Part shown: in pieces, positions 56,340 through 62,805 of the stretch
How the letters are laid out: the number at the start of each line of letters is the position of its first letter
Numbering within the stretch: the first letter of the stretch is position 1
Assembly (NCBI RefSeq): GCF_030913635.1
Contig: NZ_CP133188.1
Coordinates: 2,604,001 to 2,668,000 of the forward strand
Origin: Sedimentibacter sp. MB35-C1
GTDB taxonomy: Bacteria > Bacillota > Clostridia > Tissierellales > Sedimentibacteraceae
DNA: 64,000 nt
Reading direction: 5' to 3'
Made by a program: the position numbers and the translations under genes
The notes under the pieces: generated by a model
Database searches by the model: none
What the model was told of the DNA's origin: nothing
The model's input: the letters and a program-made list of their open reading frames with translations, nothing else

Positions 56340-57491
56340 ATGGAACTGTTAAAAAAGCACAAAGATACGGTTATATACATTTTTACATTGATATTTTCAC
56401 TTTTGTTTTTATTAATAGGATACACTTCTAACAAATCAGATTTAAGTGCCCTTAAAGAACAGACATCTTACAGAGCAAAAGTCCTATCTGTGGAAGAGAT
56501 TAAAGAAGATCAAATTGACTACGGATATGAAATGATGGCCACTAAATCAATTCGATTTATTGCGCAAATAAAAAACTATGACTCCGGTAATGATAAAGTC
56601 GAAGCTTACCAATTTATTGACGAAGCTGTCGGAATTAATCCCAAACAAATTGAAGTAGGTGATGATGTCTTAATATCTCTTCTTAGCTCAAGAGAAAATG
56701 TTGAAAAAAACGTGTGGACTTTCATAGAATATTATAGAACAGATTCACTAATAATTATTGCTGCGTTGTTTTTTTCGTTGCTCATACTGTTATGCAAAAG
56801 AAAAGGAATTAATACGATTGTATCATTAATTATAACCTGCTTTTCCATTTTCTTTGTTTTCGTACCTTCGATATTAAACGGTAAGAACATTTATATTTCT
56901 TCAATTACAATTTGTATATTCATCATACTTTCAAGCATGTTAATCATAAACGGCGCTCACAAGAAGACTTTATGCGCAATTGTTGGGAACTTAGGAGGCC
57001 TTGCTGCTGCCGGAATACTCTCGTATGTAATCAGCAAAATGCTGAACCTAACGGGAATGATAGACCAAGATTCCATATTCCTTTTCATGGTTAATACCGA
57101 AAACCCTATAGATTTAAAGGCTATACTGTGGGGCAGCATTGTAATAGGCTCATTAGGAGCGATTATGGACATCTCCATGTCAATAGCTTCTGCTATAAAT
57201 GAGCTTTCCGAAAATATTGAAAATAAAAGTTACAAAGTATTCCTAAAATCTGGACTTAATATTGGACAAGATTCAATTGGAACAATGACAAACACTTTAG
57301 TGTTGGCCTATATTGGGAGTTCATTATCTATAGTTCTACTGATGGTATTATATAACAATGATTTTTTGCAGCTTATAAATCTTGAAATGATAGTGTTTGA
57401 AATATTGCAGGCAATCATAGGAAGTATGGGGATACTTCTTGCCATCCCCGTAACTTCCATATTTTCAGCATATATTTTTAGCAAGTATTAA
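56340..57491 (+). CDS. YibE/F-family membrane protein
   Basis: 383 residues. One N-terminal span (VIYIFTLIFSLLFLLIGY), an extracytoplasmic beta region of about 100 residues (YRAKVLSVEEI ... FIEYY), then seven or so spans. GSIVIGSLGAIMDISMSIASAINE is the characteristic YibE/F segment. Function in the family is unknown; transport is suspected. It ends four bases into the convergent NifX-like gene. Start ATG 56340 behind AGAGGT. Confidence 0.88.
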   Translation: MELLKKHKDTVIYIFTLIFSLLFLLIGYTSNKSDLSALKEQTSYRAKVLSVEEIKEDQIDYGYEMMATKSIRFIAQIKNYDSGNDKVEAYQFIDEAVGINPKQIEVGDDVLISLLSSRENVEKNVWTFIEYYRTDSLIIIAALFFSLLILLCKRKGINTIVSLIITCFSIFFVFVPSILNGKNIYISSITICIFIILSSMLIINGAHKKTLCAIVGNLGGLAAAGILSYVISKMLNLTGMIDQDSIFLFMVNTENPIDLKAILWGSIVIGSLGAIMDISMSIASAINELSENIENKSYKVFLKSGLNIGQDSIGTMTNTLVLAYIGSSLSIVLLMVLYNNDFLQLINLEMIVFEILQAIIGSMGILLAIPVTSIFSAYIFSKY

Positions 57492-57847
57492 TCCTTGTAC
57501 ATCCTAGAATTAAATTCATCTAACAGACTTAATTTATCTGAGAGAAATTCGTTAATGTTATGTTCTAAAGAGCCGGGTACTGACTTATAAATTAGTATTT
57601 CGGCTTTTTCTAAAGTTTTCTGTGCATTTTCTCCACATCTTGGTGTAATCAAAACCTTGACTCCATTATCCGCAATAACTTGTGAAGCTCTTATTCCCGA
57701 AGCTCCCTGGCTTAAAACTGCACTGTTATCCAAAAATTCACTTTCCTTTGTTACACTGTTATATAAGAGATAATACGGAGCGCGTCCATAACTTTCATAT
57801 AACTCTGAACCCATGTCTTTACTCTTTGCAGGTAATGCAATTTTCAT
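57488..57847 (-). CDS. Dinitrogenase Fe-Mo cofactor-type (NifX/NifB C-terminal-like) protein
   Basis: 119 residues. MKIALPAKSKDMGSELYESYGRAPYYLLYN and the GASGIRASQVIADNGVKVLITPRCGENA pattern are the NifX/NifB-C/MTH1175 family, RNase-H-like fold, with a Cys in the cluster-binding region. Probably an Fe-S or metal-cofactor carrier; no nif genes are present. 26 bases after the DUF5320 gene and read from its promoter. Start ATG behind AGGAGG. Confidence 0.88.
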   Translation of the reverse strand: MKIALPAKSKDMGSELYESYGRAPYYLLYNSVTKESEFLDNSAVLSQGASGIRASQVIADNGVKVLITPRCGENAQKTLEKAEILIYKSVPGSLEHNINEFLSDKLSLLDEFNSRMYKD

Positions 57848-57873: not shown

Positions 57874-58095
57874 CTAATCAAAATCATGTAGCTCTGCTTC
57901 AATGTCTTCAACTCTCTTTTTTAAAATTTCTTTTTGTTCCAAAAGAAATTCTTTCCTAGTTTTATAACCATTAAAGCATCCAATTCCGTAACCATAACCG
58001 CCGCAGCCGCCTCTTCTGCCGTAGCCGTTTCTAAAAAATCTTTTTCCATAATTAAATCCTTGGTTAACTGGTCCTGTTCCGTCTCTTCCTGGCAT
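57874..58095 (-). CDS. DUF5320-family small Gly/Tyr/Arg-rich protein
   Basis: 73 residues from ATG 58095, behind GGAGGG. MPGRDGTGPVNQGFNYGKR is typical of DUF5320 (MPGxDxTGP). The middle is GRRGGCGGYGYGIGC and the C-terminus is a short helix or coiled coil (LLEQKEILKKRVEDIEAEL). Found next to NifX-like and Mrp genes in many anaerobes; function unknown. First gene after a palindrome-controlled promoter. Confidence 0.85.
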   Translation of the reverse strand: MPGRDGTGPVNQGFNYGKRFFRNGYGRRGGCGGYGYGIGCFNGYKTRKEFLLEQKEILKKRVEDIEAELHDFD

Positions 58096-58114
58096 GATAA
58101 CCCTCCTTTTATTA

Positions 58115-58128
58115 TTGACATATGTCAT
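58115..58128. promoter_or_regulatory. CATATG palindrome, second operator of DUF5320
   Basis: TTGACATATGTCAT, with a 12-bp exact palindrome TGACATATGTCA at 58116-58127. It lies just downstream of the predicted start site and before the ribosome site of the DUF5320 gene. Confidence 0.75.
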
Positions 58129-58138
58129 TTATAATTAT

Positions 58139-58169
58139 ATTATACTTCTTTATTGACATATGTCAATAA
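58139..58169 (-). promoter_or_regulatory. DUF5320 promoter with full 20-bp palindrome over the -35
   Basis: TTATTGACATATGTCAATAA (58150-58169) is an exact 20-bp palindrome. Its minus-strand TTGACA (58161-58166) is the -35; spacer 16; -10 TATAAT (58139-58144). Confidence 0.8.
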
Positions 58170-58187
58170 CTTTTTTATTTATTTCAA

Positions 58188-58212
58188 GAAAAAAACTGCT
58201 ATTGCTAGCAGT
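58188..58212 (-). terminator. Terminator of the Mrp-DUF134 operon
   Basis: Minus strand ACTGCTA, loop GCAA, TAGCAGT, then TTTTTTTC, beginning right at the DUF134 stop codon. Confidence 0.85.
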
Positions 58213-58581
58213 CTATACTTCTTCTTTATTATGTTCGATGTTACATCGCCGCCTCCTGCACGCATTGCTACAGAAGTTTCCTTCACCGTTGCAAAGCTCG
58301 TAGTCTCCGCCTTCTATTCTCAGAACTTTTCCTTTAACCAAAGATTCCGCAAGCTTGCTTCTTGCATCACTGTATATACCCTGTACAGTTGTGCGAGCTA
58401 CATTCATCTGAGAAGCACACTCTTCTTGAGATAATCCCTCTAAGTCAATCAGTCTTATGGTTTCATATTCATCAATAGTCATAGTTACAAACATGTTTCC
58501 TTTAGCATGAGAATCAAGAGGTCCAAATCTACTTGAGTCTGGGAGGCAGCACACCTTTCTCCATTTTCTTGGTCTTGGCAT
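58213..58581 (-). CDS. DUF134-family helix-turn-helix protein, candidate regulator
   Basis: 122 residues. MPRPRKWRKVCCLPDSSRFGP, MTIDEYETIRLIDLEGLSQEECASQMNVARTTVQGIY (DNA-binding helices, about 35-70) and a Cys-rich tail (CNGEGNFCSNACRRRRC). This is the DUF134 pattern; the Cys-rich ends may bind a metal or Fe-S cluster. It is co-transcribed behind Mrp (47 bases) from a promoter with the CATATG palindrome, so it may be the repressor of this set; this is inference. Start ATG behind GGAGAG. Confidence 0.9.
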   Translation of the reverse strand: MPRPRKWRKVCCLPDSSRFGPLDSHAKGNMFVTMTIDEYETIRLIDLEGLSQEECASQMNVARTTVQGIYSDARSKLAESLVKGKVLRIEGGDYELCNGEGNFCSNACRRRRCNIEHNKEEV

Positions 58582-58628
58582 AATTATCTCTCCAATATAT
58601 ATTTCTAATGTGTATCTCTACAATTATA

Positions 58629-59453
58629 TTACTTTTCCAAAATTTCTGCAATACCATTAAATAAACTATCGTCGCAAAGTTCAACCAATCCTTTATCAAT
58701 TGATACGGCAACTTTAGGGTCTATAGGAATCTTTGCAAGCACTTCTAAATTATGCTTCTTAGCAACTTCTTCAATATGGCTGTTTCCAAATATTTTATGT
58801 TCGCTGTTGCAGTCAGGACATTTGAAATATGACATATTTTCAATTACTCCTAAAATAGGAACATTCATATTTTCCGCCATCTTAACCGCTTTTTCAACAA
58901 TCATTGAAACCAGTTCCTGAGGTGACGTTACAACTATTATACCGTCCACCGGAATCGACTGAAATACTGTAAGAGGAACATCTCCTGTTCCAGGAGGCAT
59001 GTCGACAAACATATAGTCTATATCCTTCCAAATAACTTCAGTCCAGAATTGCTTTACTGTTCCGGCAATTATTGGCCCTCTCCAGATTACAGGGTCTGAA
59101 TCATTTGCCAGCAAAAGGTTGATTGACATTATATCAATGCCGGTCTTGCTTTTTACCGGAAGTATTCCATGATCATTCCCTTTTGCTTTTTCTTTCAGAC
59201 CGAAAGCCTTTGGTATTGACGGTCCTGTTATATCTGCATCTAAAACAGCAACGTTGTGATTTCTTCTTTTCATTGTTACAGCAAGCATCGAGGTAACAAG
59301 AGACTTTCCTACTCCTCCTTTTCCACTGACAACTCCTATAACTTTCTTTATGCTGCTCATTTCATGAGGCTTTTCCATAAAATCAAAAGGCTCTTTTCTG
59401 CTGTCGCAGTCTTGACTGCATGAACTGCAGCTTGAATTACAATTTTCACTCAT
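58629..59453 (-). CDS. Mrp/NBP35-type P-loop ATPase (Fe-S carrier)
   Basis: 274 residues. A Cys-rich N-terminus (CNSSCSSCSQDC), the deviant Walker A VVSGKGGVGKSLVTSML, switch LDADITGPSIPKAFG, Walker B VDMPPGTGD, and CPDC (in FKCPDCNSEH), the cluster-binding CPxC. It assembles or carries 4Fe-4S clusters. Upstream of DUF134. Start ATG 59453 behind ACAGGAG. Confidence 0.95.
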   Translation of the reverse strand: MSENCNSSCSSCSQDCDSRKEPFDFMEKPHEMSSIKKVIGVVSGKGGVGKSLVTSMLAVTMKRRNHNVAVLDADITGPSIPKAFGLKEKAKGNDHGILPVKSKTGIDIMSINLLLANDSDPVIWRGPIIAGTVKQFWTEVIWKDIDYMFVDMPPGTGDVPLTVFQSIPVDGIIVVTSPQELVSMIVEKAVKMAENMNVPILGVIENMSYFKCPDCNSEHKIFGNSHIEEVAKKHNLEVLAKIPIDPKVAVSIDKGLVELCDDSLFNGIAEILEK

Positions 59454-59497
59454 CTGTTTACTCCTGTCGTATATTTACTAATGTATTTTTTATTAGC

Positions 59498-59507
59498 AAC
59501 ATATGTT
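59498..59507. promoter_or_regulatory. AACATATGTT palindrome, second operator of mrp
   Basis: A 10-bp exact palindrome centred on CATATG, just downstream of the mrp start site. Weaker match to the main operator, but in the same relative position as the second site at DUF5320. Confidence 0.55.
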
Positions 59508-59517
59508 CATTAAAAAG

Positions 59518-59550
59518 ATTATATTCCTACTGACTTCATATGTCAATAAA
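59518..59550 (-). promoter_or_regulatory. mrp promoter with a partial CATATG operator
   Basis: Minus strand -35 TTGACA (59541-59546), 17-base spacer, -10 TATAAT (59518-59523). The half TTATTGACATATG is intact; the other half reads AAGTCA, spaced two bases off the perfect form. Confidence 0.75.
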
Positions 59551-59552
59551 CA

Positions 59553-61103
59553 TTAAATGTTACTTAATTCCTTTAACAAAAGATCGTCATAGGTATCTAA
59601 TCCTGAAACTTGAGCCGCTAATTCTGTAAGAGGAATTATGTCTCCTCTTTCAATAAATCCAAGTTTAAATTTTCGATTTAACGCCATAAGCTGCTTAAGA
59701 CCTGCTGAAACTCTGCTTATATATGAATAAACACCTATAGCACCGCCTGATATTTTATCAGTATTATCATAGTACATTTTCAATTCTCTTATCCCTGCAA
59801 AAAGCTCATTTCTTTCCGAACCGAACCTTTTATATTCTTTGGTAACTATGCCCTGAGACAATAATTCATCAACTTGTTTCCCTGACATTGCAGCAGCCAT
59901 TGCAGCTCTTCCTACTGCAACAAAATTTACAACGGGAGCTCCAAGCGCAAGTCCCTTGAAAATATGATCTTCTGTAGCAAACCCTCCGGCAATGGCAATT
60001 TGAGGTAGTTTAAAATTTTTATATTTCATTCTGCTTAGCAAATTGTAGAGCATACTTTCAAGATAAACAGTGGGCATGCCCCATTCATTCATCATTTTAA
60101 CAGGGCTGTTTCCGGTACCTCCACCGGCTCCGTCAAAGGTAATCAAATCCACTCCTGCTTCTGAAGCAATTTTTATAATCCTTACCAAGTCTTTAGGGTC
60201 AAATGGTCCAGTTTTAAAGCATATGCGCTCGGCACCTAATTTTCTTAATTCTGCAACTCTATTAATAAGCAATTCTTCGTTCCATATAGGAAGTTTCCCT
60301 ATTTTTTCAAATATTTGTCCTTTGCCTTTTTTGTAATTTTCCGCTATATTAGGATCTTCAGGATCAGGATACACAAGGTAACCCATTTTTTTTAATTTTA
60401 CAGCATCATCTATATCCTTAACTGCTCCCATGCCTTGAATTCCTTTTGCTGCCTGCCCAAACTTTAATTCAACAGACTTCACGCCCAAGCTTTTTATTGC
60501 ATAATCAAGCACGCCTAAATTTTCATCATCATAATTTGCCTGTAGAATTATATCTCCATATCCTCTGTAATATTCTCTAAAAGAATCCACCATTTTCATA
60601 ATTAACGGAGAAGAAACAACTTTCCCGTTTTCAAGCGCCAGCTCTTTGTCCTTTGCTACAACATCCTCTCCTATAACAACGGGAACCCCTGCCAAGGCAG
60701 CACCAGCATAGTAGTCTTTCCAATTCAGCTTAGCCATAGCGGGAAGAATTATAGGTGCATTCATTTTTACTTTCTTCGATAACCCAAAACTCGTCTGAAT
60801 ATCTACTTTCGGATAAGTTGCGGAATCCGCATTTTCTTCACATCCATAAGCTCCGAATACTTTCCCGTTTATATTGAAATGTGAAAAGTCAAGCGGATAT
60901 CTCTTTTCTGACGCAAATTGATTTTTATCTGTTTCAAAGGGATAAAGAGCCTCACAACCTCTTATAGCAGATAACCCGATTTCACATGGACCTATACAAT
61001 TAGCTGTACAGACTGCACACATACCAGAATATTCCGAAACGTTTTCCGGAGTTCTTACTGCTGTATGTGTCAACGTGCTTCCTAATGATGGACTAAAAGA
61101 CAT
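59553..61103 (-). CDS. Stand-alone FMN glutamate-synthase-like protein
   Basis: 516 residues. A Cys-rich N-terminus MCAVCTANCIGPCEIG (CxxCxxxCxxxC) is followed by the GltB synthase barrel: KFGQAAKGIQGMGAV, ITFDGAGGGTGNSPVKMMNEWG, QIAIAGGFATEDHIFKGLALGA. There is no glutaminase domain. In full-length GltS this barrel binds FMN and a 3Fe-4S cluster. The reaction here cannot be named. It has its own palindrome-controlled promoter. Start ATG 61103 behind AGGAGG. Confidence 0.88.
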   Translation of the reverse strand: MSFSPSLGSTLTHTAVRTPENVSEYSGMCAVCTANCIGPCEIGLSAIRGCEALYPFETDKNQFASEKRYPLDFSHFNINGKVFGAYGCEENADSATYPKVDIQTSFGLSKKVKMNAPIILPAMAKLNWKDYYAGAALAGVPVVIGEDVVAKDKELALENGKVVSSPLIMKMVDSFREYYRGYGDIILQANYDDENLGVLDYAIKSLGVKSVELKFGQAAKGIQGMGAVKDIDDAVKLKKMGYLVYPDPEDPNIAENYKKGKGQIFEKIGKLPIWNEELLINRVAELRKLGAERICFKTGPFDPKDLVRIIKIASEAGVDLITFDGAGGGTGNSPVKMMNEWGMPTVYLESMLYNLLSRMKYKNFKLPQIAIAGGFATEDHIFKGLALGAPVVNFVAVGRAAMAAAMSGKQVDELLSQGIVTKEYKRFGSERNELFAGIRELKMYYDNTDKISGGAIGVYSYISRVSAGLKQLMALNRKFKLGFIERGDIIPLTELAAQVSGLDTYDDLLLKELSNI

Positions 61104-61147
61104 ATAATACCTCCTAATTATTAATTGTATAATTATATTTTACTACT

Positions 61148-61167
61148 TTATTGACATATGTCAATAA
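61148..61167 (-). promoter_or_regulatory. Exact 20-bp CATATG palindrome before the GltB-like gene
   Basis: TTATTGACATATGTCAATAA, identical to the site at 58150-58169. Minus strand TTGACA serves as -35; 16 bases on is TAAAAT, with TATAAT a little further. The site lies between divergent genes and could also affect 61314. Confidence 0.8.
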
Positions 61168-61313: not shown

Positions 61314-62060
61314 ATGAACAAAACGACTAAAAATTATTACATCAAGACAAACAGAATATTTAATCCTGTCAGAAAATACGGCTGGATAATAACTGTGCTT
61401 GTGGCAATAGGAGGCTTATGGGAACCTAAATTAGGACTGGTAGTGCTTCTTATAATGGGAGGACTTATTATTACATCTTTCTTCAGCGGAAGATATTGGT
61501 GCGGTAACATATGCCCCCATGGGAGTCTGTTTGATAAAATAATACTACCGTATAGCGCAAATAAGAAAATACCGGGATTTTTCAAATCAAAATTTTTTAT
61601 CATTCCGTTTTTCCTTTTTTTTATGTTTAATTTCATAAGAAAAATGATTATGATTTTAAATTCTTGGGGAACTTATGATATTTTAGATAAAATAGGCGCT
61701 TTGTTTTCAAACACATACTTAGTTGTTCTGATTGCTGGCGGAGCTCTTGCAATATTTGTAAATTCAAGAACATGGTGTCAATTCTGCCCAATGGGAACAA
61801 TGCAAAAAATCTCGCTTGGATTAGGAAGAAAATTAGGCATCGCAAAAAAAACAGAGAAAAAAATTACAATTTCAGATAAATCTAAATGCATCAGCTGTGG
61901 AAAATGCTCTAAGGTCTGCCCGTTTCAGCTTAGCCCATACCTTGAATTTTCTGACAAAAACCAATTTGACAACATAAATTGCATTAAGTGCAATACATGT
62001 GTAGAAAACTGCCCTTTAAAAATACTATCACTGGAAAAGGAAGACAAATCAGCCGCATAA
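61314..62060 (+). CDS. Membrane 4Fe-4S ferredoxin-type protein (NapH/Fer4_5-like)
   Basis: 248 residues from ATG 61314, behind AAGGAGAG. Four to five membrane spans with cytosolic Cys pairs RYWCGNICPHG and RTWCQFCPMGT (Fer4_5 type), and a C-terminal 2x4Fe-4S ferredoxin: CISCGKCSKVCPF and CIKCNTCVENCP. Such proteins move electrons across or along the membrane. Divergent from the GltB-like gene; it has its own strong terminator. Confidence 0.9.
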   Translation: MNKTTKNYYIKTNRIFNPVRKYGWIITVLVAIGGLWEPKLGLVVLLIMGGLIITSFFSGRYWCGNICPHGSLFDKIILPYSANKKIPGFFKSKFFIIPFFLFFMFNFIRKMIMILNSWGTYDILDKIGALFSNTYLVVLIAGGALAIFVNSRTWCQFCPMGTMQKISLGLGRKLGIAKKTEKKITISDKSKCISCGKCSKVCPFQLSPYLEFSDKNQFDNINCIKCNTCVENCPLKILSLEKEDKSAA

Positions 62061-62229: not shown

Positions 62230-62805
62230 ATGGGTGTCCTTATGCTGTTTTTCACATCAATTGGATTATCAATGGATGCGTGTGCCGTATCAATATCTAA
62301 CGGAATGTGCTTCAATAAATTCGAAAAAAAGCAGATTTTATTAACCGCATCTGCTTTTGGTTTCTTTCAGGCTTTCATGCCTATATTAGGGTACTTAGTA
62401 GGATCAACCTTCAGCGAAGCTATTTCTTTTTTAGACCACTGGATTGCATTGATACTTTTGGGATTTATCGGAGGAAAAATGATTGTTGAAGCATTGAAAG
62501 AACTTAAACACCCAGAAGCATGTCTAAACGTCGAAAAATTTTTAACCTTTAAAACATTATTGCTTCAGGCCATCGCAACTAGCATTGATGCTCTGGCAGT
62601 AGGAATCGGATTCGCTGTAATAAAGGTTAATATTGTAAACGCTGCATTATGCATCGGCATTATCACATTTATAAGTTCAATAATAGGTTCAAATCTCGGC
62701 AAAAAATTCGGAGAAATGTTTAAGCAGAAAGCTGAATTTTTAGGCGGCTCAATATTAATACTAATAGGGTTAAAGATCTTTATAGAGCATGTTTTTTTCA
62801 GCTAA
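62230..62805 (+). CDS. mntP: Manganese efflux pump MntP
   Basis: 191 residues, six membrane spans. The two family motifs SIGLSMDACAVSIS and ATSIDALAVGIGFA hold the conserved Asp residues of the metal path. Exports Mn2+. Start ATG 62230 behind AAGGAG. Own promoter. Confidence 0.95.
   Translation: MGVLMLFFTSIGLSMDACAVSISNGMCFNKFEKKQILLTASAFGFFQAFMPILGYLVGSTFSEAISFLDHWIALILLGFIGGKMIVEALKELKHPEACLNVEKFLTFKTLLLQAIATSIDALAVGIGFAVIKVNIVNAALCIGIITFISSIIGSNLGKKFGEMFKQKAEFLGGSILILIGLKIFIEHVFFS

Follow-up and report, generated by a model that had tools for sequence, protein, structure and literature searches.

Genes and palindromes at the DUF134 locus

We analyzed a 64,000-nucleotide (nt) stretch of Sedimentibacter sp. 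MB35-C1 (NZ_CP133188.1, positions 2,604,001 to 2,668,000; genome size, 3.62 Mb), referred to below as the window. It contains a set of CATATG palindromes (termed operators here) in front of three units, which encode a small DUF5320-like protein with a NifX-like protein, an Mrp-type ATPase with a DUF134 protein, and a GltB-like enzyme. DUF134 is named in Pfam as a family of unknown function. Because a palindrome shared by many bacteria stands ahead of iron-sulfur (Fe-S) carrier genes and its letters track DUF134, this family is a likely gene switch. The features of the locus are as follows.

57488-57847, minus strand: NifX-like (Nitro_FeMo-Co) protein, 119 amino acids (aa) (PF02579, 61.5 bits)
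57874-58095, minus strand: small Gly/Tyr-rich DUF5320-like protein, 73 aa (by position and a C-terminal match to a PF17253 protein)
58112-58131, minus strand: operator 2 of the DUF5320-NifX unit, 2 mismatches; 38 bp after operator 1, over the transcription start predicted from the -10 element
58150-58169, minus strand: operator 1 of the DUF5320-NifX unit, exact 20-mer; -35 at 58166-58161, -10 TATAAT at 58144-58139, spacer 16
58213-58581, minus strand: DUF134 protein, 122 aa, proposed regulator (PF02001, 69 bits)
58629-59453, minus strand: Mrp/NBP35-type P-loop ATPase, 274 aa, resembling the N-domain of MrpORP (PF10609, 303 bits)
59493-59512, minus strand: operator 2 of the Mrp-DUF134 unit, core TGAACATATGTTGC; 37 bp after operator 1
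59530-59549, minus strand: operator 1 of the Mrp-DUF134 unit, one good half (TTGACATATG), the other degenerate; -35 at 59546-59541, -10 TATAAT at 59523-59518, spacer 17
59553-61103, minus strand: GltB-like (glutamate-synthase domain) enzyme, 516 aa (PF01645, 48 bits)
61148-61167, minus strand: single operator of the GltB-like gene, exact 20-mer; -35 TTGACA at 61164-61159 from the right half, -10 TAAAAT at 61142-61137, spacer 16

The Mrp protein aligns with MrpORP (NF041136) over the N-domain only, at 347 bits and under the cutoff of 450; it is not itself a MrpORP, the NifX protein being encoded by a separate gene. The NifX proteins match the MrpORP C-domain weakly to well (21 to 69 bits). For the GltB-like protein, no NCBIfam match at E ≤ 0.01 was found. 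The 73-aa protein lacks a Pfam match of its own; its link to DUF5320 comes from its position and from 27 C-terminal residues that match a protein with a PF17253 hit. A previous sequence-only reading of the window had placed a DUF5320 gene here: the gene is present, and its label is soft.

The 20-mer TTATTGACATATGTCAATAA occurs exactly at 58150-58169 and 61148-61167, as that reading had reported, and with 2 mismatches at 58112-58131. These three matches at ≤3 mismatches compare with 0.03 expected from shuffled sequences, and there is no further match at this threshold in the window, in agreement with the previous observation of no other such site. Degenerate copies had also been listed at 58115, 59498, and 59538, and all exist. 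The last two (CATATG at 59500-59505 and 59537-59542) are weak when taken singly and count because together they form the pair TTGACATATG-N26-38-CATATG. The 12-mer at ≤3 mismatches is not above chance in the window (45 versus 38 ± 6).

This paired layout is present at three promoters in the whole genome, and a control pattern at none. Two of the promoters are those of the DUF5320-like/NifX and Mrp-DUF134 units in the window; the third, at 3056 kb, precedes NifX-MinD-MinD-NifX and then a ZIP transporter gene. All four PF02579 (NifX) genes of the genome, located at three places, lie in apparent units (judged by strand and spacing) headed by an operator-type site. The NifX gene at 76.6 kb is preceded by a 14-mer with one mismatch, 34 bp from the likely start codon; 35 bp upstream of that 14-mer is a degenerate first site, TTGACAAATG. 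DUF134 (PF02001) has a single match in the genome. The exact 14-mer is not scattered at random, with four copies in 3.62 Mb, three of which precede regulon genes; at ≤2 mismatches, the 14-mer is near chance (40 versus 34 for the control). The palindromes mark a predicted regulon of NifX, Mrp, and GltB-like units, to which the loci at 3056 kb and 76.6 kb, beyond the view of the sequence-only reading, also belong. The regulon over Fe-S- and metal-linked genes postulated there is supported by this genome scan and by the conservation described below.

The fourth exact 14-mer, at 599912 (L310:7913-7959), is without a clear target. A second degenerate site follows 33 bp on, and the next gene, ~490 bp away, is a member of an adjoining ParA/ParB/Fic gene cluster. 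Control of the ECF transporter/DUF1893 genes by this site was rejected, as it lies ~80 bp beyond the 3′ end of the ECF gene.

Read by eye, the minus-strand promoters are TTGACA-16-TATAAT for the DUF5320-like unit, TTGACA-17-TATAAT for the Mrp unit, and TTGACA-16-TAAAAT for the GltB-like unit. In all three, the -35 TTGACA is one half of an operator, which bears out what had been noticed before. Judged by its letters, the operator is two inverted -35 elements. The second CATATG dyad previously described just past the start at two of the three promoters is indeed near the predicted start; given the -10 position and the spacing, operator 2 would therefore sit at about +1 to +20.

With operator 1 over the -35 element of a promoter close to consensus and operator 2 over the transcription start, ~38 bp downstream, bound DUF134 is proposed to shut RNA polymerase out. 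Repression by DUF134 is the probable outcome of such an arrangement. DUF134 might instead bind and activate, aiding RNA polymerase or remodeling the promoter from its position over the -35 element and the start. Some regulators near the -35 element do activate, and the Fe-S regulator IscR has been modeled on the -35 element together with sigma70 at an activated promoter (excerpt of PMC8561392). We consider activation unlikely: promoters this near to consensus (TTGACA-16/17-TATAAT) should need no activator, and a second operator over the start is a repressor layout.

Genes for a divergent membrane 4Fe-4S protein and an MntP-type manganese pump (61314-62060 and 62230-62805 of the window) adjoin the regulon. 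By eye, no good -10 element was seen downstream of the 61148 site toward these genes.

Conservation of the operator and co-occurrence with DUF134

A total of 79 named loci were fetched with the DUF134 alignment, kin included without thinning; they include Sedimentibacter, Desulfosporosinus, Clostridium, Syntrophomonas, Thermoactinomyces, Flexilinea, and a Brocadia metagenome-assembled genome. When all perfect palindromes were counted without a preset motif, TGACATATGTCA was the top 12-mer within 2 kb of DUF134 (39/79 loci), compared with 3 loci for the runner-up and 1/72 for TGACATATGTCA in far flanks. A site with ≤2 mismatches lies within 4 kb of DUF134 in 69/79 loci, and 50 of the 59 site pairs less than 150 bp apart are spaced by 36 to 40 bp. 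The palindrome is conserved before orthologous genes: in L066 (Sedimentibacter sp., DUF134 97% identical) it precedes the GltB-like gene, Mrp-DUF134, and DUF5320-NifX, and in the more distant L069 and L074 it precedes DUF5320-NifX.

The promoter spacing was surveyed, on both strands, at 124 TTGACATATG sites, most of which come from the named loci and lie close to DUF134. A hexamer sharing five or six letters with TATAAT follows 64 of these sites at spacer 16 and 26 at spacer 17; beyond these, the largest counts are 23 (spacer 21) and 14 (spacer 27). A second CATATG lies 36 to 40 bp downstream in 88/97 cases of the same survey.

Neighboring genes within 6 kb of DUF134 were identified in the 79 loci by phmmer with proteins of the Sedimentibacter genome. 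They include MinD/ferredoxin-type (48/79), Mrp-type (44/79), three types of NifX (40, 35, and 7), DUF5320-like (15/79), and GltB-like genes (6/79); [DUF5320]-DUF134-NifX-MinD-MinD-Mrp-NifX is the common order. Within 260 bp of 90 oriented paired promoters (both strands), the first gene is DUF5320-like in 29 cases, DUF134 in 11, another regulon gene in 10, and unlabeled in 14, while 26 have no gene within that distance.

Co-occurrence was assessed in 299 genomes of the phylum, the source genome included, of which 198 have DUF134 at E ≤ 0.001; these tests are plain genome counts, uncorrected for kinship. The paired pattern (-35 TTGACA in the first operator, second operator ~38 bp on) is present in 91/299 genomes, and the reversed pattern, used as a control, in 0/299. 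With the source genome left out, it is found in 86/197 DUF134-positive and 4/101 DUF134-negative genomes (p = 1e-14). The association is strongest for the DUF134 type of the window (cutoff of 140 bits, set by eye at a score gap from 145 to 134), with 41/47 genomes, compared with 45/150 genomes that have other types only. The exact 12-mer occurs in 24/47 window-type genomes versus 25/251 others (p = 8e-10), and its reversed control in 5/47 versus 16/251. With DUF134 of any type, the exact 12-mer gives a modest 41/197 versus 8/101 (p = 0.003); the window type and the paired pattern each make the co-occurrence sharper. Within the order, the exact 14-mer is present in 17/100 genomes (source genome included) and the control in 0/100.

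These counts also bear on whether an unlinked protein, for example of the CRP/FNR or SorC/DeoR type, reads the palindrome, with DUF134 merely a neighbor and target. FNR/CRP boxes resemble TTGAC-N4-GTCAA. The Escherichia coli CRP consensus in 1cgp contains TGAcatatgTCa (excerpt of PMC4655474), and SorC/DeoR-type regulators with a sigma-4-like helix-turn-helix (HTH) adjoin two exact 14-mers in L058 and L059. A CRP/FNR box would have a free middle, whereas TGAC-N4-GTCA sites near DUF134 carry ATAT in 61/62 cases, for which reason the main motif was rejected as such a box; no TTGAT-N4-ATCAA box was found near DUF134. Moreover, co-occurrence tracks DUF134, the window type above all (the comparison being made for DUF134 only), and the best predicting columns sit in the DUF134 recognition helix, as detailed below. 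An unlinked reader is accordingly less probable still than activation, and direct binding of the operator by DUF134 is, on these sequence data, very likely.

The two exact 14-mers in L058 (1501-2555) and L059 (1501-2556) are 19 bp apart before a SorC/DeoR-type sugar-binding regulator, the HTH of which also matches sigma region 4; perhaps the same half-site is read here by another family. These 14-mers were set aside as probable sites of another regulator but were kept in the plain tallies, as was TATGTGACATATGTCACAGA (L173 and L174), which fits the CRP consensus.

The DUF134 genes of L075, L077, L081, and L127 have no operator within 4 kb of fetched DNA; an 804-aa open reading frame follows DUF134 in L075 and L127.

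The DUF134 protein and its recognition helix

The window protein belongs to DUF134/UPF0251 (PF02001, 69.3 bits versus a curated cutoff of 27), and its matches to Pfam sigma region 4 fall just under the cutoffs (25.4 versus 25.7 and 20.6 versus 24.1). It is not a sigma70-family sigma factor, as the Pfam scan gave no region 2 match; the same scan gave no sugar-binding effector domain of DeoR/SorC repressors and, at E ≤ 0.001, no Rrf2 domain (IscR, RirA). The sigma-region-4-like HTH lies within about residues 36 to 83, and R63, T65, and Q67 are invariant in 66 aligned sequences (the window protein plus 65 of 70 listed proteins).

In the AlphaFold2 model, the HTH is confident (blocks of 85 to 93). 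The best Foldseek matches are mostly sigma region 4 or DeoR chains, with a root mean square deviation (rmsd) of ~1 Å or below over 40 to 50 residues, and a sigma factor gives the best profile match in the PDB (E = 0.004). No solved DUF134 structure turned up in sequence searches. DUF134 thus resembles sigma-70 region 4 in its HTH, in the half-site TTGACA, and in the inner-to-outer order of residues 62 to 68, but differs from sigma-70 in its lack of a region 2 match, its length of 122 aa, its Cys-rich tail, and its inverted-repeat site. With DeoR/SorC proteins (DeoR, 7bhy; Foldseek rmsd 0.6 over 40 residues, E = 0.13), it shares a sigma-4-like HTH on an operator, but not the sugar-binding domain (PF04198 in L058 and L059).

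The operator letters were compared with the recognition helix, by which 177 distinct domains (from 192 DUF134 matches, identical ones removed) were sorted into types. The covariation scan used the 70 of the 177 with both a paired site and an aligned protein. Type comparisons, residue 68 counts, and tree contrasts used the two inner half-sites; column scans used the majority of three half-sites. Near window-type DUF134 (R[TS]T[VI]), position 4 from the dyad is A in 58/63 near-palindromic CATATG sites, and near type II (RQT) it is G in 8/8. When the inner half-sites of pairs within 3 kb are counted, position 4 shows an A:G ratio of 119:50 in type I and of 3:20 across types II and III; type IV has no pairs. 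Within type I inner half-sites, base 6 (T/G) goes with residue 68: 92/7 for G68 and 6/30 for R68, or, with each locus counted once, 34 T and 2 G for G68 and 1 T and 8 G for R68. Six independent G68/R68 contrasts on a tree built without the helix gave five as expected, one tie, and none opposed.

In a shuffle-normalized scan of 102 DUF134 columns over 70 loci, the top column for position 4 is residue 62, and that for both position 6 and position 7 is residue 68. For type I only (92 columns, 55 loci), z scores place T64 and A62 highest for position 4, and G68 highest for positions 6 and 7; by excess, N106 and F31 overtake G68 at position 7. We presume a residue equivalence between the DUF134 helix and sigma70 R584, E585, and Q589. 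When positions 7 to 2 are aligned with TTGACA (-35 to -30), DUF134 residues 62 to 68 run outward in the manner of these three residues. In E. coli sigma70, R584 acts at -31 and E585 at -33, and Q589 is placed at -35 (excerpts of PMC2613000, PMC8407463, and PMC8561392).

The sites could also be merely strong -35 elements, or chance palindromes, retained by common promoter descent. TTGACA is the -35 consensus, the genes are related by descent, and kinship is uncorrected in the co-occurrence tests. This explanation, already disfavored, is highly improbable: the reversed paired pattern has no match in the 299 genomes, operator 2 is retained where no -35 element is needed, sites occur at unlinked loci of one genome, and the letters of the operator vary with residues of the helix.

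Operators near R68-type DUF134 (e.g., in L092 and L080) are asymmetric, with outer halves that keep TTGACA/TGTCAA and inner halves that differ.

A candidate repressor of ORP/Mrp-type carrier genes

In our proposal, DUF134 acts as a one-component repressor of its own unit and of a set of ORP/Mrp-type Fe-S carrier genes by binding to the palindrome, presumably as a dimer. Each half-site TTGACAT would be a -35 element, read in the direction of sigma and in nearly the same register by a recognition helix related to sigma region 4.2. Our favored and likely explanation of the locus is an autoregulated DUF134 repressor of this kind, reading inverted -35 elements. The sequence-only reading had singled out DUF134 as the protein to test in binding assays, a choice that proximity, co-occurrence, and amino acid-base covariation back.

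Several observations weigh against this proposal. Sites over the -35 element may serve activators too, and the exact site at 599912 has no plausible target gene. No site lies within 4 kb in the fetched DNA of 10/79 DUF134 loci, the exact 12-mer is lacking in 23/47 window-type genomes, and 34/89 window-type loci have no pair within 3 kb; pairs within that distance are found in 6/21 type II, 6/32 type III, and 0/24 type IV loci. Only the HTH of the protein is modeled well (mean pLDDT of 73 for the whole model, with poor ends), and no Foldseek match has E ≤ 0.001. Uncorrected mutual information puts the loop columns F31 and E100 over the helix columns, and for base 5, which sigma contacts through E585 and which is nearly invariant, no helix column is near the top (64 is 28th and 68 is 24th of 102). 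The independent contrasts number only six. The link of G68/R68 with T6/G6 is confined to the two inner half-sites: the outer half of operator 2 remains T6 in 15/20 R68 loci, and that of operator 1 was set in advance by the pattern searched for. Because the outer half-sites do not follow residue 68, our confidence is slightly lowered.

As for the signal, we conjecture that the repressor responds to an Fe-S cluster or metal whose state the carrier pathway sets. This is suggested by the near-invariance of C11, C97, C104, and C108 and by natural DUF134-NifX fusions, and we hold the odds of Fe-S or metal sensing to be even. In window-type DUF134, C11 and C97 are each present in 88/88 proteins, C108 in 87/88, C55 in 82/88, and C104 in 79/88; C11 and C97 are lacking in the other types (0/16, 0/31, and 0/22). 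Five proteins from five genomes, of differing helix types, fuse DUF134 to NifX (Nitro_FeMo-Co) at the following positions.

L191:1563-2294, DUF134-NifX fusion
L167:753-1478, DUF134-NifX fusion
L258:2493-3287, DUF134-NifX fusion
L263:1932-2633, DUF134-NifX fusion
L216:2570-3232, DUF134-NifX fusion

By its domain content, the fusion is a natural link between the putative regulator and a carrier domain. The fusions in L191 and L167 adjoin an operator, but both loci were fetched by operator. In IscR, SufR, and RirA, cluster state controls Fe-S biogenesis genes, and these regulators have DNA-binding folds other than that of DUF134. The proposed logic is what DUF134 would share with them; no such Pfam match was found in DUF134 at E ≤ 0.001.

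The predicted regulon resembles the ORP/Mrp Fe-S carrier system. In the ORP operons DVU2103-2109 of D. vulgaris, MinD-like ferredoxin-type and Mrp/NifX-type genes likewise stand together (ORP genes, excerpt of PMC6345978), and the window Mrp and NifX proteins match the two halves of MrpORP. The D. vulgaris orp operons have a sigma54-dependent promoter and the regulator DVU2106 (excerpts of PMC6345978 and PMC4641369), whereas the window promoters, read by eye, are of the sigma70 type, with paired palindromes beside DUF134.

Among the papers listed in literature searches on the family and the motif, which covered neither regulon databases nor most subscription papers, none describes such a DUF134 regulator. 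The DUF134 family gains a predicted operator, TTGACATATGTCAA, together with a predicted regulon and predictions for single residues. The anaerobic NifX/MinD/Mrp carriers, which are poorly understood, gain a candidate regulator, and what they respond to could be probed with a reporter. If the proposal is true, a repressor whose sigma-like helix reads inverted -35 elements would clearly exemplify promoter mimicry. More broadly, DUF134 may descend from the part of sigma that reads the -35 element, or may have converged on it, and would compete with sigma for sigma's recognition element; a four-cysteine Fe-S or metal center (window type) or a fused NifX domain (other members) may equip it to sense the anaerobic ORP/Mrp Fe-S carrier pathway throughout the phylum and beyond. 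For this wider picture, we lean neither way.

Near helix types II and III (e.g., L235 and L239), sister operator forms such as TGAGCATATGCTCA and TTRGCATATGCYAA are found, with pairs 33 to 35 bp apart in 9/12 cases.

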